This document shows, one piece after another, positions 51,954-58,906 of a DNA stretch of 64,000 bases. A program made the translations under genes and the position numbers. Where the stretch lies: contig CANMSB010000015.1 in NCBI GenBank assembly GCA_947500445.1, forward strand, positions 1 to 64,000. The letters run 5' to 3'. Origin of the DNA: an uncultured Flavobacteriaceae bacterium. GTDB lineage: Bacteria; Bacteroidota; Bacteroidia; Flavobacteriales; Flavobacteriaceae. Numbering within the stretch: the first letter of the stretch is position 1; every line of letters begins with the position of its first letter. The notes below the pieces were generated by a model. That model was not told the origin of the DNA, searched no databases, and saw only the letters and a program-made list of their open reading frames with translations.

Positions 51954-54155
51954 ATGCCTTTTAAGCAATTTCCTTTTTACCGACAGCTGGACCAAATGGA
52001 CTGTGGTCCCACCTGCCTTCGTATGGTGGCCAAACATCATGGAAAGGCATATTCTCTCGATTTTCTTAGAAAAAAGGCCAATATTACCCGGGAAGGGGTT
52101 TCCATGGGCGGTATTGCGGAAGCGGCCGAAGAAATAGGTTTTCATACCCTTGCGGTCAGTCTGGATTTTGAGACACTGGACGAAGAGGTTCCGTTACCAT
52201 GTATCGCCCATTGGCGGCAGCGGCATTTTGTGGTAGTGTACGAGATAAAAAAGGATACCGTATACGTGGCCGATCCCGCGCATGGGCTGGTAAAGTATAA
52301 AAAGGCCGATTTTCTGGAAGGCTGGCTGGGCAAAAATGCCGGGGAACGGACCGAAGGCTATTTACTGCTTTTGGAGACCACGCCGCGTTTTTTTGAAAAT
52401 GATATTGAGGAAAAATCCGAATACGGCTTTAAGTTCTTGTTCTGGTACTTCAAGCCGTATAAGAAGTATATCGGGCAGCTGTTTTTGGGATTATTGGTAG
52501 GTAGCTTGTTGCAGCTTATTTTTCCTTTTTTAACGCAAGCTGTGGTCGATTATGGTATCAATTACCAAAACCTGCATTTTATCTATCTGATATTGGCGGC
52601 CCAGTTGATGCTGTTTATATCGCAGACCTCGGTCGATTTGATCCGGGGGTGGATATTGCTCCATATGACCAGTAGGATCAATATCAACCTGATTTCCGAT
52701 TTTTTATTGAAACTAATGCGATTGCCCATTGCGTTTTTCGACTCCAAAAACACCGGTGACATCATACAGCGGATATATGATCATGACCGCATCCAGGATT
52801 TTCTGTCCAGTACAACGCTGAACACCTTGTTTTCAGCATTCAATATCGTCATTTTTGGGTTCGTGTTGGCCTATTACGATTGGACGATTTTTGCCATTTT
52901 CTTTCTCGGGTCGTTCATTTATATTGGATGGACCTTACTTTTTTTAAAGAAACGGGAAGAGTTGGATTATAAGCGTTTCGATCAGGCGGCCGATAACCAA
53001 AATAGTATCTATCAATTGATTTCCGGAATGCAGGAGATAAAGCTCAACGGTTCGGAACGACGAAGACGGTGGGAATGGGAGGCCATCCAGGTCAAACTTT
53101 TTAAGGTTTCCATCAAGAGCTTGGCATTGTCCCAAACGCAAAATACCGGAGGCCGTTTTTTTAATGAGCTCAAGAATATCCTCATCACTTTCGTAGCGGC
53201 GAAATCCGTAATCGACGGTAGTCTTACCCTGGGTATGATGCTTTCCGTACAATACATTATCGGTCAATTGAACCTGCCCATCAATAATTTTATCACCTTC
53301 ATCCAAACCGGACAGGATGCCAAAATTAGTTTGGAGCGCCTGGCCGAGATACATTCCAAGGAAGATGAGGAAGTTTCGGACGACACCCTGCTAAAGGAAC
53401 TGCCGGAAAAGAAGGGAATAGCCGTTAAGAACCTGGGCTTTAGATATGGGGGAAGTGCATCGCCAATGGTGCTGGATGGCCTGAATTTTGAAATACCTGA
53501 AGGAAAGGTGACCGCCATTGTAGGTGCCAGTGGTAGTGGAAAAACCACCTTGATAAAGTTATTGTTGCGATTTTATGAACCGACAACGGGCGAAATTACG
53601 GTGGGCAGTTCAAAGTTACAGTCGTTGGGAGTGTCCTTCTGGAGAAAAAACTGTGGAAGTGTCATGCAGGACGGCTTTCTGTTTAGCGACACCATCGCCA
53701 GAAACATTACCGAGTCGGATTCAGAGGGTGTTTTAGATAAAAAGCGACTGTTGCACGCTGTCGACGTTGCCAATATTGAAGATTTTATTACCCAATTGCC
53801 TACCGGTTTCAATTCAAAGGTGGGTAGCAGCGGTACCAATGTAAGTGGTGGGCAAAAGCAGCGGATATTGATTGCAAGGGCGGTGTATAAAAACCCGAAT
53901 TATATTTTTTTGGACGAGGCGACCAGTGCACTCGATGCAAACAATGAAAAAGTGATCATGAACAAATTGGATGAGTTCTATAAAGGTAAAACCGTGGTTG
54001 TTGTTGCCCATCGGTTAAGTACCGTTAAAAATGCCGATCAAATTATTGTTTTGGACAAAGGGAAAATGGTCGAAATAGGGAATCATCAAGAACTGACCGC
54101 GAAAAGGGGGCTGTATTATACCTTGGTGAAAAATCAGTTGGAACTAGGAAGCTGA
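51954..54155 (+). CDS. Peptidase-containing ABC transporter (C39 peptidase + ABC export)
   Basis: A 733-residue PCAT. Residues 1-125 are a C39 peptidase with Cys17 in QMDCGPTCL, His91 in WRQRHFVVVYE and Asp107 in VYVADPAHG, an apparently complete catalytic set. Residues about 155-440 are the six-helix membrane domain. The ATPase has Walker A GASGSGKTT at about 524-532, the VSGGQKQR signature near 630 and YIFLDEATSALD. Such exporters cut leader peptides, usually after a double Gly, and export the product. It is followed after 1 base by the HlyD gene. It faces the split LanB genes across a convergent junction. Confidence 0.95.
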   Translation: MPFKQFPFYRQLDQMDCGPTCLRMVAKHHGKAYSLDFLRKKANITREGVSMGGIAEAAEEIGFHTLAVSLDFETLDEEVPLPCIAHWRQRHFVVVYEIKKDTVYVADPAHGLVKYKKADFLEGWLGKNAGERTEGYLLLLETTPRFFENDIEEKSEYGFKFLFWYFKPYKKYIGQLFLGLLVGSLLQLIFPFLTQAVVDYGINYQNLHFIYLILAAQLMLFISQTSVDLIRGWILLHMTSRININLISDFLLKLMRLPIAFFDSKNTGDIIQRIYDHDRIQDFLSSTTLNTLFSAFNIVIFGFVLAYYDWTIFAIFFLGSFIYIGWTLLFLKKREELDYKRFDQAADNQNSIYQLISGMQEIKLNGSERRRRWEWEAIQVKLFKVSIKSLALSQTQNTGGRFFNELKNILITFVAAKSVIDGSLTLGMMLSVQYIIGQLNLPINNFITFIQTGQDAKISLERLAEIHSKEDEEVSDDTLLKELPEKKGIAVKNLGFRYGGSASPMVLDGLNFEIPEGKVTAIVGASGSGKTTLIKLLLRFYEPTTGEITVGSSKLQSLGVSFWRKNCGSVMQDGFLFSDTIARNITESDSEGVLDKKRLLHAVDVANIEDFITQLPTGFNSKVGSSGTNVSGGQKQRILIARAVYKNPNYIFLDEATSALDANNEKVIMNKLDEFYKGKTVVVVAHRLSTVKNADQIIVLDKGKMVEIGNHQELTAKRGLYYTLVKNQLELGS

Positions 54156-54156
54156 T

Positions 54157-55476
54157 ATGGAAGAAGAAGTGCCGGACATAGAACAAAAGATAGCGGGGCT
54201 CGATGAGCGTTCCGGTCAAGTGAAGGAAATTTTGGGAAAGGCACCCAATTGGGTGGTGCGTTCCGGTATTTCCGTTGTTTTCGTAATCGTATTGGGCGTG
54301 GTGACAGCCGCGGCATTGTTAGGGTATAACGATATTATTTCGGCCGACATCGTCATCACCAGCAAGAACCCCCCGGTGTATTTGGAAGCGAATCGAGAGG
54401 GGAGATTGACCCAGCTTTTTGTAGCTCCAAATCAAAACGTGACCAAAAACCAGGTGTTGGCCGAAATCGAAAATACGGCAAACTACGAAGACGTGGCTTA
54501 TTTGCGAGAAAAGATAGCCGGTTTTAATAGTGGAACGATGTCCTTGGATTCCTTAAAACAAGAGTATCCGCCATATCTGGATTTAGGACCCGTGCAGCAG
54601 GCGTATGGCCGTTTTTTAACGGACTATCAAAACTATATTTTGTTCAACGCGCTGTCCCCAAATCAGAAAGAATCTGCCATGATCCAGCAGCAGTTGACGG
54701 AGCAAAGGCGTTTTTTGGAGAAGCAAGAACGACAGATGGGTATTTTCAAGGAGGATCTTCAGCTCTCAAAAAGTAGTTTTGAGCGCAATCAAAAACTATA
54801 TGAAAAAGGAGTGGTTTCCAAGGCGGAGTTTGAAAATGCCTCAAGGGCCTATCTTTCCGATAAACAAAACTATGAAGGGTTCTTAACCAGTATGTCCAAT
54901 ACACAGATCGCGATAGCCAATTTTAATAATTTATTGACCAAATCGGACATCCAAGGGGCGGAATTTGAAAATAGCTATGCACAAAAATTGAATGAGGCCT
55001 TTCAGTTTTTAAAAAATGAACTGACCCTTTGGGAACAGCAATATCTGGTAAAAAGTCCCATAAATGGAAAAGTGACCGTATTCGACATCTGGAACCAATA
55101 CCAAAACGTAAATGCGGGAGAGGTTTTATTTACCGTAGTGCCCGAGAATTTGGATGGAATCGTAGGTAAGGTGACCTTACCGGTACGGAATTCGGGTAAG
55201 GTAAAAGTGGGGCAAAAAGTGCTTGTGAAATTGGCGAATTACCCTTTTGAGGAGTGGGGGAGCGTTACCGGTGAAATACAATCGATATCATTGGTGCCCA
55301 AACAGGGTGAAGAATCGTTCTATACCCTGTTCGTCAGCTTTGGAGATTTGACCACCTCCTATGGAAAGAAAATTGATTTCAAACAGGAAATGCAGGGTAC
55401 CGCGGAAATCGTGCTGGAAGAGCTCACTGTGCTCCAACGGATCTTCTACCAATTTAGAAAGGCGTTCGAACGGTAA
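54157..55476 (+). CDS. HlyD/membrane-fusion-protein family secretion adaptor
   Basis: A 439-residue protein with one N-terminal transmembrane helix (VVFVIVLGVVTAAALLG, about 42-58), the lipoyl/barrel-sandwich halves (VYLEANREGRLTQLFVAPNQNVTKNQVLAEIEN and VKSPINGKVTVFD), and a long coiled coil between (about 175-275). It bridges the ABC exporter to the outer membrane. It starts 1 base after the transporter stop. No TolC-like gene is present here, so the outer channel must be encoded elsewhere. Confidence 0.93.
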   Translation: MEEEVPDIEQKIAGLDERSGQVKEILGKAPNWVVRSGISVVFVIVLGVVTAAALLGYNDIISADIVITSKNPPVYLEANREGRLTQLFVAPNQNVTKNQVLAEIENTANYEDVAYLREKIAGFNSGTMSLDSLKQEYPPYLDLGPVQQAYGRFLTDYQNYILFNALSPNQKESAMIQQQLTEQRRFLEKQERQMGIFKEDLQLSKSSFERNQKLYEKGVVSKAEFENASRAYLSDKQNYEGFLTSMSNTQIAIANFNNLLTKSDIQGAEFENSYAQKLNEAFQFLKNELTLWEQQYLVKSPINGKVTVFDIWNQYQNVNAGEVLFTVVPENLDGIVGKVTLPVRNSGKVKVGQKVLVKLANYPFEEWGSVTGEIQSISLVPKQGEESFYTLFVSFGDLTTSYGKKIDFKQEMQGTAEIVLEELTVLQRIFYQFRKAFER

Positions 55477-55652
55477 TGTCGGCACCCCTTCTTTACTATT
55501 TTACATACTTGCCGTTGGCTTTGCCAAAGAAGGAGGATGAACTAGAGATCAACTGCTTGTGCCCGCTTTTTTTTGAATGGCTGCCGCCGTCCGATAATAG
55601 CGGTATAGAAAGTCGTAACAGACCATTTCGTTCAATCGGTTTTTGGATTTGA
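55476..55652 (+). CDS. Small ORF coupled to the HlyD gene, doubtful
   Basis: A 58-codon frame whose ATG shares one base with the HlyD stop (TAATG), a coupling geometry. Its first 25 codons are unique DNA; the rest lies antisense to the 3' end of the SpaB_C-like gene. It encodes a hydrophobic start, KKEDELEIN and a CLC motif. No leader/core structure is convincing, and it may be chance. Confidence 0.15.
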   Translation: MSAPLLYYFTYLPLALPKKEDELEINCLCPLFFEWLPPSDNSGIESRNRPFRSIGFWI

Positions 55653-56466
55653 AAAGACGGTTCATCAGCATGTGTATATAACTGCCCAAAAGACCGTTCA
55701 TTGGCATTTCCAATAGATTTTGAGCCACAATGGCCATGATGTCGTTCACTATCGGTGCAATATGGGCGCTCTTGGTTTCCAACACTTCCAAGATCGGGGC
55801 GTGGTCCGGATCGGTTTCTTTAGTGAACACCATAAAGGAAGCTATCCGGGAGCGGTGTGCGCGGTATTTGGCGTCCAATTGCTTCTTTAAGGGCCTTCCC
55901 ATTCCAAATTCTGCTCCAAACCCTGTTTTCAGGTGGTCCAACAACACTAGTTTTTCATCCAAAGTGTAAGAGAAATGGGTCAGTAAATGGTCTATCGATC
56001 GCAATCCGAACAACCATCGTAGCGTTTCGCCCTCATCTCCTTCGATCAGGTCCAAAAAAGAAGCGGTTGCCATGCTGTCAAACTGGAACAGACTTTCCGA
56101 TAGGACAATGGTGTTAGTTCCATAACGCTCCAATTCCCTCTGATACGTATCCAACTGTATTTTCCAAATAAGGTCCCTTTCCAAAAAGAGGTTCAAGGGT
56201 TCGTGAAGGGCTCCCAGAATAGTACCGATATCTGATGTTGATGCACTTAAAAACCGTACCCTTAAATGGTGTTCCGGATCGGCATAACGGATAAAAAACC
56301 ATTTTGTAATACTGCCCGAAGCCAAAAACCGATCCGCAAGCGGTGCAATAACTTCGGTGAGAATGGTGTCGGCCGTTTTGTGTCCGGTGTAGATCTTGTA
56401 GTAAACCCACTCACTCCCGATGGCGAAACTACGTTTGGTGTTTTTTTTAGGATGGTCTTTCTTCAT
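55549..56466 (-). CDS. LanB elimination-domain protein (SpaB_C / thiopeptide-type)
   Basis: A 305-residue stand-alone version of the C-terminal half of class I lanthipeptide dehydratases. The family signature is clear: SEWVYYKIYTG at the front, WFFIRYADPEHHLRVRF (residues about 61-77), YQRELERYG in the middle, and IHMLMNRLF near the C-terminus. In LanB enzymes this domain removes glutamate from glutamylated Ser/Thr to give dehydroamino acids. It overlaps the glutamylation-domain gene by 20 bases and is the second gene of that unit. Confidence 0.92.
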   Translation of the reverse strand: MKKDHPKKNTKRSFAIGSEWVYYKIYTGHKTADTILTEVIAPLADRFLASGSITKWFFIRYADPEHHLRVRFLSASTSDIGTILGALHEPLNLFLERDLIWKIQLDTYQRELERYGTNTIVLSESLFQFDSMATASFLDLIEGDEGETLRWLFGLRSIDHLLTHFSYTLDEKLVLLDHLKTGFGAEFGMGRPLKKQLDAKYRAHRSRIASFMVFTKETDPDHAPILEVLETKSAHIAPIVNDIMAIVAQNLLEMPMNGLLGSYIHMLMNRLFKSKNRLNEMVCYDFLYRYYRTAAAIQKKAGTSS

Positions 56467-58687
56467 TGCTACGTTCGCTACGGTTATAAAAGGATATGAT
56501 CATTTGATTGGAATAGTGGCCTTGCGCCGAACTTACGGTTCCTTCTTTTGAAAAAAGGAACTCGGAGAGGGTGAATTGCGATTTGTTTTTTACGCTATCC
56601 AATAGCATTTGTACCGATGTGGCGTTGGAAAAATTGATTAGCAATTCGTTATCGCCTTCGGTGAGAACAACATACTGGGGAAGTTTTAGTTGCGATTGCC
56701 ATATTTTAATCTTTTGTAATAAGGCCTTTTCATCATCGATAACATTCGATAGGGTAGTAAGCTGTTCCTTATCAATGTTCCAGGTGGCACGATGAAATAT
56801 AAGGTTGCGATAGGTGACCCTTGGTAAAAAAGACCGGTTTTCTCCTAAATAACCATACCTAAAATAAAGTCCGCCCCGCAGGCCTTGGTTTTGTAGGTCG
56901 CATAAAAAGTGATATATGGGTAACGCATTGGCCGAAAAGTTATGTGCGTTGGTCAATCTGGGCAGCACCTCCATGTTATTTTTTTTGGAACGGAGCAAGA
57001 TCCGGTCGTTCCTTATGGAAATGTAGAGGTCACTAATGGGAAGTTGCTTTTCCAAGCTTTTTGCAGATTTGGCGAGATAGGGTATTTCATGGGTCCGAAA
57101 CGAAGGCCGCGTTAAAATATTACCCACTCTTGATTCGGGAAGATGGACAATTTCCGCTAAAATTTTATCCGGGTTCAGCTGTTCTTCCTTTGCCGTAATC
57201 TTTTGGGCTTGGAGCGCTAAGGAGGGGTCGCCATGGCAAAACCGTCCCAAAAGGTTTGCGGCACTCGAACCGCCGACGCCGGGAAGGAGTATTTTCTGCT
57301 CCCCATTTTCTTCAATGACGCTTACCATTGCCGATAACGTATCGGGAAGGTCGTCCCAGTGGGCCGACATTTCTTCAAAATCTTTGTCCTCTAGGATTAT
57401 AGGGGTATTGCCGTTTTCATCACTTGTGATCAATTTTTTTTCTAAAACACCAAGCGCTGGATGCCAGTTTAGGGTTTTGGACTCGGAATTCGAATTCGTT
57501 TGAGGGAGTAGCAGGTCGTCCACTAGGGGGTTCACATCTCCGCTGCCGCCCGTTTGAAGATATCCAATGCCCGTTTCCACATCCATAACCTTGGCAAGCG
57601 GCATCTCCCGTTCTTCATAGCGCTCCCGAAACGCGTTTTTGAACTTTGTTAGATTGGTTTCCCTGGGTACGGGTGTCATGCGGTTTAAAAGTGTCATTGC
57701 CTGCTTTACACTTTTGGCGATGTCGTTTGACAATTGGTTCGAGCGATGCGCTAGTTGGAGGTTCGTTTGAAAGAGATATTGCAAATTATAAGTGGTCGGC
57801 CCCGTTTGTAGATGCGTTGCAATATCCAAATACGATTTGGGGTCATTGCCCATTCGTTCATCGAGTTGTCCGATTCTTTTTTTTGTGGTCTCCAAAAAAA
57901 GGGTTTCCGCTTCTACATGTTGTAAGGGAGACAATACGTGCTGAATCTGTTCCAGAAACGCCGGCCCCGATACGGAGGGTTCCATGGCGCCAACGAGAAT
58001 TTGGCTGTCGATAAGTTCATTTAAAAAATCCGAGGCCTGATCTTTCGGAATGTCTTTTTCGGTCAATATTTTCACCAGATGCTCAAGAGTCGCTCCAGTA
58101 ACGGCACCGTATACAATGTTCTTTAGATAGTCCGAAAAGTCCACTTCGATAATATGATGTTGTCTTCGGCTATTCTGATAATAATACTCAATATACCTTA
58201 AGGTGTCACCAATGGGATACATGCTGGAATTTGGATAGAACGGCAATTGTTCGCGAATTGCTTTCTTCTTGGACAGGTCTTGGGAAAGGGCTACCAAGTA
58301 GTTCATGTCCAGGCCAGTGTGTCGTTTATAGCTTTGTGGCGAAGACAGCTCAATTTCCGTATGTTCGGCGAAATTTCCGGTTCCGCAGCCCGCAAAAAGA
58401 CCAAAAGGAGTACATCTGGTGGCCATTCGGGTAAGGTATTTCAATAGGGAAAGGCGTAGCTTTTTCTCTTTTTTTACTTCCGTTGATGCGTTCAGCCACT
58501 TTTCTATTTCGGCATATAACGAGGGAGAGGCCAGAAAACAGGACTCCTTAACGATTGGGAGGTCGAAGGCCGCTTTCAATTGCGCTTTCGTGACAACGGG
58601 CTGCGAAGTAAGTTTTTCGATAAAATCGATACTGAATATCGGGGTCCTAAGCACATATTGTGGGAAATGGTCGTAAGGGTTTTTCAT
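56447..58687 (-). CDS. LanB glutamylation-domain dehydratase (lantibiotic dehydratase N-terminal type)
   Basis: A 746-residue protein matching the N-terminal part of class I LanB enzymes, which use glutamyl-tRNA to glutamylate Ser/Thr of a precursor peptide. Motifs: MATRCTPFGLFAG with Arg91, Thr93 and Pro94; FKNAFRERYEEREMPLAKVMD followed by GIGYL; and LPRLTNAHNFS. The elimination domain is a separate gene just downstream, so LanB is split, as known in some Bacteroidota (for example pinensin). No LanC cyclase gene is in the window. The gene starts with ATG at 58687. Confidence 0.93.
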   Translation of the reverse strand: MKNPYDHFPQYVLRTPIFSIDFIEKLTSQPVVTKAQLKAAFDLPIVKESCFLASPSLYAEIEKWLNASTEVKKEKKLRLSLLKYLTRMATRCTPFGLFAGCGTGNFAEHTEIELSSPQSYKRHTGLDMNYLVALSQDLSKKKAIREQLPFYPNSSMYPIGDTLRYIEYYYQNSRRQHHIIEVDFSDYLKNIVYGAVTGATLEHLVKILTEKDIPKDQASDFLNELIDSQILVGAMEPSVSGPAFLEQIQHVLSPLQHVEAETLFLETTKKRIGQLDERMGNDPKSYLDIATHLQTGPTTYNLQYLFQTNLQLAHRSNQLSNDIAKSVKQAMTLLNRMTPVPRETNLTKFKNAFRERYEEREMPLAKVMDVETGIGYLQTGGSGDVNPLVDDLLLPQTNSNSESKTLNWHPALGVLEKKLITSDENGNTPIILEDKDFEEMSAHWDDLPDTLSAMVSVIEENGEQKILLPGVGGSSAANLLGRFCHGDPSLALQAQKITAKEEQLNPDKILAEIVHLPESRVGNILTRPSFRTHEIPYLAKSAKSLEKQLPISDLYISIRNDRILLRSKKNNMEVLPRLTNAHNFSANALPIYHFLCDLQNQGLRGGLYFRYGYLGENRSFLPRVTYRNLIFHRATWNIDKEQLTTLSNVIDDEKALLQKIKIWQSQLKLPQYVVLTEGDNELLINFSNATSVQMLLDSVKNKSQFTLSEFLFSKEGTVSSAQGHYSNQMIISFYNRSERSNEERPS

Positions 58688-58705: not shown

Positions 58706-58906
58706 TTATTGTGGTAAAGGCCACGGTGTTTCAATGGATATCACAGACAACTTTGAATTTATTTGGATTAACTGTATATGCCAATTATTGGGAGCAAAGC
58801 CGTACGTAAGAAAGGTAACATGTTCCTTAATAGGAATTTGATGAAGATAAGACATCATGATGAATTCTTGAAAATTTTTGCTTTTGTTTAACCTTGGACT
58901 TTTCAA
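58706..58906 (-). CDS. Short ORF upstream of lanB, doubtful precursor candidate
   Basis: A 66-codon frame just upstream of lanB on the same strand, beginning with TTG at 58906; ATG codons at 58858 and 58855 would give about 50 residues. The start KSPRLNKSKNF vaguely recalls the Lys/Leu-rich leaders of Bacteroidota lanthipeptides (LxLNKxxI), but there is no Cys and no double Gly, so lanthionine formation is excluded. Position is the only real support. Confidence 0.2.
   Translation of the reverse strand: MKSPRLNKSKNFQEFIMMSYLHQIPIKEHVTFLTYGFAPNNWHIQLIQINSKLSVISIETPWPLPQ

Follow-up and report, generated by a model that had tools for sequence, protein, structure and literature searches.

A split LanB dehydratase and exporter locus of an uncultured Flavobacteriaceae bacterium and its probable cyclase-precursor partners on other contigs

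The exporter and split-LanB locus

The window, a 64,000-nucleotide stretch of contig CANMSB010000015.1 (hereafter C15) from an uncultured Flavobacteriaceae bacterium (GCA_947500445.1), belongs to a flavobacterial genome of 5.18 Mb, assembled in 177 contigs and 99.8% complete. Between susC and rpsL it carries a four-gene locus, composed of a C39 peptidase-ABC transporter, its HlyD-type periplasmic adaptor and the two subunits of a split class I lanthipeptide dehydratase (LanB), all full length (Table 1). The plus-strand exporter pair converges on the minus-strand LanB pair, with 72 bp separating the adaptor from the elimination subunit and an overlap of 20 bp between the two LanB genes. Domain matches and coordinates confirm this arrangement, which a first-pass annotation had described from the letters of the window.

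The LanB pair possesses both a glutamylation (PF04738) and an elimination (PF14028) domain, with the Lant_dehydr_N and Lant_dehydr_C models each covered over nearly their whole length and neither subunit interrupted. A genome-wide search returned the two window genes as the sole PF04738 match and the sole PF14028 match, respectively. The transporter contains MDCGPTC, HWRQRHF and VADPA stretches, to which catalytic roles are ascribed.

Three gaps of the locus (one beyond the exporter on the left, one separating HlyD from LanB and one beyond LanB on the right) were searched by tblastn with 16 queries, comprising 14 full LanC cyclases and two short open reading frames wrongly taken as outgroups. 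No convincing LanC relic emerged, the best hit covering 52 residues at E 0.13 on the strand opposite LanB. Within the same gaps, from susC to rpsL, no open reading frame carries a lanthipeptide leader motif, and a genome-wide leader scan found nothing in C15. A minus-strand open reading frame just upstream of LanB (58706-58906) was considered as a precursor and rejected, possessing no Cys, no GG and no family match. The earlier observation that neither LanC nor a precursor lies between susC and rpsL therefore stands for these searches; extending that absence to the genome would be wrong.

Table 1. Genes of the window locus and positions of a conserved split-LanB operon at seven other loci of the family
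Feature	Position	Strand	Matches
C39 peptidase-ABC transporter, 733 residues	51954-54155	+	PF03412 (130.8 bits), PF00664, PF00005
HlyD-type periplasmic adaptor, 439 residues, exporter's partner	54157-55476	+	PF13437
LanB elimination subunit (glutamate lyase), 305 residues	55549-56466	-	PF14028 (242 bits, residues 20-291), TIGR03891
LanB glutamylation subunit, 746 residues	56447-58687	-	PF04738 (479 bits, residues 44-695)
Conserved split-LanB operon, L049	7311-12405		
Conserved split-LanB operon, L050	3601-9998		
Conserved split-LanB operon, L174	3433-10226		
Conserved split-LanB operon, L175	8005-14734		
Conserved split-LanB operon, L176	8161-14802		
Conserved split-LanB operon, L177	8257-17769		
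Conserved split-LanB operon, L179	3760-10480		

Cyclase-precursor cassettes elsewhere in the genome and in relatives

The genome encodes three LanC proteins (PF05147), all on other contigs (C31, C40 and C2) and each accompanied by a GG-leader precursor (LanA) within ~3 kb, at 0.2, 3.1 and 2.3 kb, respectively. This bears out the annotation's reservation that precursor and cyclase may be encoded elsewhere. All 13 LanC proteins compared share the residues D125, H196, C262, C312 and H313 (numbered after the C31 protein), which by comparison with NisC are the zinc ligands and catalytic residues. A LanC profile search of solved structures retrieves 8byk, a Lanthionine synthetase C-like protein, and NisC.

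The C31 precursor carries the core SYPTACGCNGGGTASLSCGSRIGNAGCCY, with six Ser/Thr and five Cys, and the C40 precursor a 43-residue core with four Ser/Thr and four Cys. Both exceed the cut-off of 22 bits of the NCBIfam model NF038153 'class I lanthipeptide' (26.9 and 22.8 bits), and no other site in the genome does. A leader model trained on 18 precursors of this and related genomes, its own three included, returned three strong sites genome-wide (E 6e-11 to 4e-9), all belonging to the training set; the next follows at E 0.06. In the C40 cassette, a LytTR response regulator and a histidine kinase stand between LanC and LanA, while the C2 cassette reads TPR/AraC regulator, LanA, prolyl oligopeptidase, LanC. 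A tblastn search of the 18-19 kb surrounding each of the C31 and C40 cassettes detected no C39 exporter. Class I LanA peptides of Bacteroidetes are described as having leaders with LxLxKx5L, often ending in GG, and their clusters as often including a C39 protease (PMC7268733).

Among a sample of 60 relatives, ten genomes are of the same genus, and six of these, the source genome included, encode LanB. In all five other LanB-bearing congeners LanC adjoins LanB on the same strand at a distance of 5-25 bp, and at least one GG-leader precursor occurs in the DNA retrieved for each locus. LanC and LanA were probably neighbours of LanB at the ancestral locus and were lost in the window genome. A C39/HlyD pair converges on LanB, as in the window, at three of these loci (L044, L045 and L048); at L047 the contig ends before any such pair could show, and at L046 none lies within 18 kb. 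The window exporter shares 84-89% identity with the exporter at three congeners' LanC-LanB loci, and the adaptor 70-73% with the HlyD proteins of the same three.

Unlinked cassettes recur within the genus. Three congeners (G002, G003 and G007) contain five further full-length LanC proteins on other contigs, with a GG-leader precursor near every one. In G002 an unlinked orthologue of the C31 cassette is present; its LanA shares 76% identity with that of C31 and has all five Cys. A LanC tree, rebuilt without the two spurious outgroups, pairs C31 with G002:C4 (100/98) and C2 with G003:C14 (99/97); for the C40 LanC, an origin as the former neighbour of the window LanB is possible on this tree. The C2 cassette and G003:C14 have LanC, prolyl oligopeptidase and TPR/AraC regulator in common, and the LanB of G003 also lies on another contig. 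The genus also includes four genomes that lack LanB. G001 encodes a LANC_like protein, which shares ~21% identity with the LanC of C31; the other three yielded no LanC-like protein.

The same split layout recurs among 80 named LanB loci. L060 combines a LanB pair with a convergent HlyD-C39 pair 17 bp away, and no LanC or precursor was found there. Its genome (G060) encodes one LanB and one LanC, 284 kb apart on a single 2.78 Mb contig, and this LanC adjoins a six-Cys GG-leader precursor that scores 21.7 bits with NF038153, just below the cut-off. In a tree of 37 hand-picked LanB proteins, the large subunit of the window nests inside a clade of LanC-adjacent LanBs (support 98/95), and the L060 protein branches just outside that clade (99/98), so LanB and LanC probably became unlinked on more than one occasion. 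A separate clade unites five Aquimarina LanBs whose LanC is remote, and 10 of 11 LanBs from LanC-free genomes fall outside the LanC-linked clade, the exception being L108.

Twenty of the 80 loci show no LanC in the available flanking DNA. Fourteen were followed, with ~10 kb on both sides in 13 and 6 kb on one side at L101; six short-contig loci (L099, L107, L116, L118, L120 and L130) were left out. Eleven of the 14 belong to genomes with LanC elsewhere and three to genomes with none. Seven of the 11 have no LanC near any LanB, and the other four (G061, G063, G068 and G072) have one beside a second LanB. Across 56 LanB genomes, a set enriched on purpose for LanC-less loci, which gives no population estimate and whose draft assemblies may hide neighbours, LanC lies only away from LanB in eight, both near and away in 20 and only near in 23, with none in five. 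Dropped before this count were three LanC rows with open frames of at least 600 residues, nine partial, fused or weak LanC rows, two partial LanB pieces, genomes G038, G039, G040, G045 and G053, the partial LanC G007:C126, and G002, which is identical to G074.

A family sample of 219 genomes, drawn evenly and including the source genome, yielded both enzymes in 11 genomes, LanB only in nine, LanC only in two and neither in 197 (Fisher p 1.1e-11, uncorrected for kinship). Inspection by eye of the 11 genomes with both placed LanC only away from LanB in two (the source genome and G182, identified by its coordinates as G060), both near and away in four and only near in five. At least one LanC thus stands away from LanB in 6 of the 11, so lanthipeptide products may be undercounted. 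At L181 (7753-14590), LanC has HlyD and C39 genes nearby, and its genome, G202, gave no LanB match.

Proposed action in trans and its alternatives

The window locus is best read as the dehydratase-exporter half of a class I lanthipeptide pathway, with the LanA-LanC half residing in separate cassettes elsewhere, a dispersed variant of split-LanB (pinensin-type) synthesis; we assign this reading a probability of about 0.8. From the single LanB, the similarity of the leaders, the co-occurrence of the enzymes and the recurrence of the split, we infer that the three remote precursors are substrates of LanB, modified in trans. Judged by sequence, the genome would supply what class I synthesis calls for: LanB, separate unlinked LanC proteins with presumed zinc ligands, and LanA peptides (C31 and C40). 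In the proposed pathway, precursors with a KK..LxLxKxxIxxL...GG leader would be bound by the single split LanB, whose larger subunit would glutamylate Ser/Thr from glutamyl-tRNA and whose smaller subunit would eliminate the glutamate. Each cassette's own LanC would then close (methyl)lanthionine rings, and the C39 exporter, together with its adaptor HlyD and an outer-membrane channel from another locus, would cut after GG and secrete the product. We propose the window exporter as the leader-cutting exporter of remote GG-leader LanA peptides, presumably serving C31 and C40; the formation of rings and any biological activity of the products are likewise predicted.

The residues of LanB speak on both sides. 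We assume the NisB R14 equivalent by position, the NisB alignment beginning at residue 24, and the equivalents of R464, R784/786, E823 and R826 were matched by eye. Residues aligned with NisB Y80, R83, R87, T89 and D121 (names from PMC4341554) are kept in the large subunit, as is the H961 equivalent (H265) in the small one. Near-invariant columns are retained in 36 of 36 cases in the small subunit and 85 of 88 in the large one, although the latter is only 58% identical to its nearest congener. In our judgement these sequences point to a working but fast-evolving enzyme.

Several observations weigh against action in trans. The D299 equivalent of NisB is Asn in the window (residue 309 of the large subunit), in a column with 85 Asp, two Asn and one Glu among 88 other LanB rows (G002 and G007 counted twice each). 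Three of the 88 near-invariant residues of the large subunit are changed, against none in the five congeners, and changes in at least three such columns occur in 17 of all 89 rows. The end branch of the large subunit measures 0.77, compared with 0.25 in its sister. Reduced LanB activity is possible given this long branch, the changed residues and the Asn. LanB without LanC and LanC without LanB also occur in the 219-genome sample. The remaining points concern C2, whose precursor has a 15-residue core with two Thr, one Cys and no Ser, matches no NCBIfam model and lies at a locus with its own C39/HlyD pair.

C2 is accordingly the least certain LanB substrate, with no leader-model match, a weak core, its own exporter and a low G+C content (0.33, compared with 0.38 in its 19.5 kb surroundings and 0.44 in the window). 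These features would fit a narrower form of action in trans, whose odds overlap with those of the full version, in which only some cassettes use the window LanB: C31 and C40 would be class I substrates, and C2 would belong to another pathway or be a recent arrival without a working dehydratase. Against this separation, the C2 leader can be aligned with the other leaders, the active-site columns are present in the C2 LanC, and G003, where LanB is also on another contig, has a related unlinked cassette. We consider such a restriction possible but doubtful.

Alternatively, the locus could be a decaying remnant, its LanB set unused after the loss of the adjacent LanC and precursors, with the remote cassettes idle. 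The comparison with the five congeners, the long branch, the Asn and the three changed residues are what decay would leave. Both subunits are nonetheless uninterrupted and almost fully conserved at near-invariant columns, and the exporter is conserved at 84-89%. NisB D299A, moreover, is reported to retain almost the dehydration of the wild type when tested in the native host, although an earlier study, cited by the same paper, had reported it as inactive (PMC4341554). Decay is therefore an unlikely account of the locus.

The cyclase-free product that the annotation had proposed, in which LanB dehydrates an unrecognised peptide exported without lanthionine rings, agrees with the failure to find LanC or a precursor at the locus and with cyclase-free split-LanB operons that seem present in the family, but is very improbable here given that the genome has three LanC proteins accompanied by leader-bearing precursors, that the leader scan gave no additional strong site, and that the window LanB lies inside the LanC-linked clade, outside which 10 of 11 LanBs of LanC-free genomes fall. 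The annotation had itself named a precursor plus LanC elsewhere as evidence that would count against a new class, and the whole-genome search it recommended uncovered, as far as sequence can tell, three LanC genes and three leader sites. Its cyclase-free class is thus not supported for this genome; elsewhere in the family an operon of that kind does seem to occur.

This operon was encountered among the 219 family genomes, where 9 of 20 LanB genomes have no PF05147 match at E 0.001. Seven of the nine carry the row LanBN, LanBC, TPR/AraC regulator and GG-leader precursor (Table 1), followed in six by a subtilase or prolyl oligopeptidase gene (partial in L050); the contig of L049 ends first. The remaining two, L178 and L180 (the latter a full-length LanB), do not show the row. 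Among three further genomes without a LanC match, the same row with a subtilase occurs at L106 and L134, and L108 lacks it. The cores of the nine operon precursors contain no Cys in two cases and one or two in seven. A missed LanC is unlikely in G203 and G211 because these are single-contig genomes. On gene content, the operon may represent a candidate cyclase-free dehydrated-peptide class, and a cyclase of another family is possible.

The C2 cassette (L008 4555-9938) resembles the cyclase-free operon with LanC replacing LanB, and at L008 11637-18817 a second C39/HlyD exporter is followed by several GG-leader peptides, one matching TIGR03949 class IIb bacteriocin. At L174 (10528-14983), the stretch separating LanB from C39 holds four similar GG-leader peptides and a protein with an MvdD-like pre-ATP-grasp domain. 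They may belong to a graspetide-type pathway that shares the exporter, and L176 and L177 encode proteins that look similar by eye. Repeated precursors or TPR/AraC-precursor pairs stand at Aquimarina and Dokdonia LanC or LanB loci (L146 716-3998, L079, L080, L082, L085, L088 and L131), which suggests multiplication of cassettes.

More tentatively, and at somewhat less than even odds, Flavobacteriaceae may combine one LanB-exporter hub with plug-in cassettes, each comprising LanA and its own cyclase, regulator or protease, that are swapped around the genome as well as between species and yield several products per LanB. In a sister branch, a like cassette in a cyclase-free genome would yield ring-free dehydrated peptides.

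Comparison with known lanthipeptide systems

Our literature search returned no description of an unclustered class I dehydratase, which is weak evidence, most subscription papers lying outside the search, and a phrase search ('without LanC' and similar) gave only unrelated papers among the matches listed. PMC10734526 mentions lanthipeptide clusters of Flavobacteriaceae without this arrangement. The survey of PMC7268733 (Walker 2020) calls class I only where LanB lies within seven genes of LanC, a rule of detection and not of chemistry. In the window genome LanC lies on other contigs only, and by that rule neither half of this pathway, nor of that in G060, would be called a class I cluster. The arrangement can therefore be missed by gene-cluster searches. 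If the proposed pathway is correct, peptide engineering would gain a naturally promiscuous enzyme in a LanB that accepts several unlinked precursors.

In enzyme content the system resembles the pinensin-type split-LanB clusters of Bacteroidota; it differs in placing LanB and the exporter at one locus and LanA-LanC at three others. For peptides of Bacteroidota, use of the GluRS/tRNA-Glu pair of the producing organism in co-expression has been reported (PMC9993889). Lanthipeptide proteases encoded outside their clusters and found by correlation networking (PMC8960859) likewise represent a needed maturation enzyme far from the precursor cluster, but the distant gene there is the leader protease, whereas here it is the class-defining dehydratase. 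Stand-alone LanC genes of Bacteroidales (PMC10352776) also lie away from any LanB; those examined there lack the zinc-site motifs and the screened genomes lack LanB, while here the residues are kept and LanB is present. The promiscuous LanM enzymes ProcM and SyncM of cyanobacteria (PMC12328550) offer a parallel, one enzyme serving many precursors of a genome, but each is a single bifunctional LanM, whereas the pathway proposed here would couple a shared LanB with a separate LanC in each cassette.
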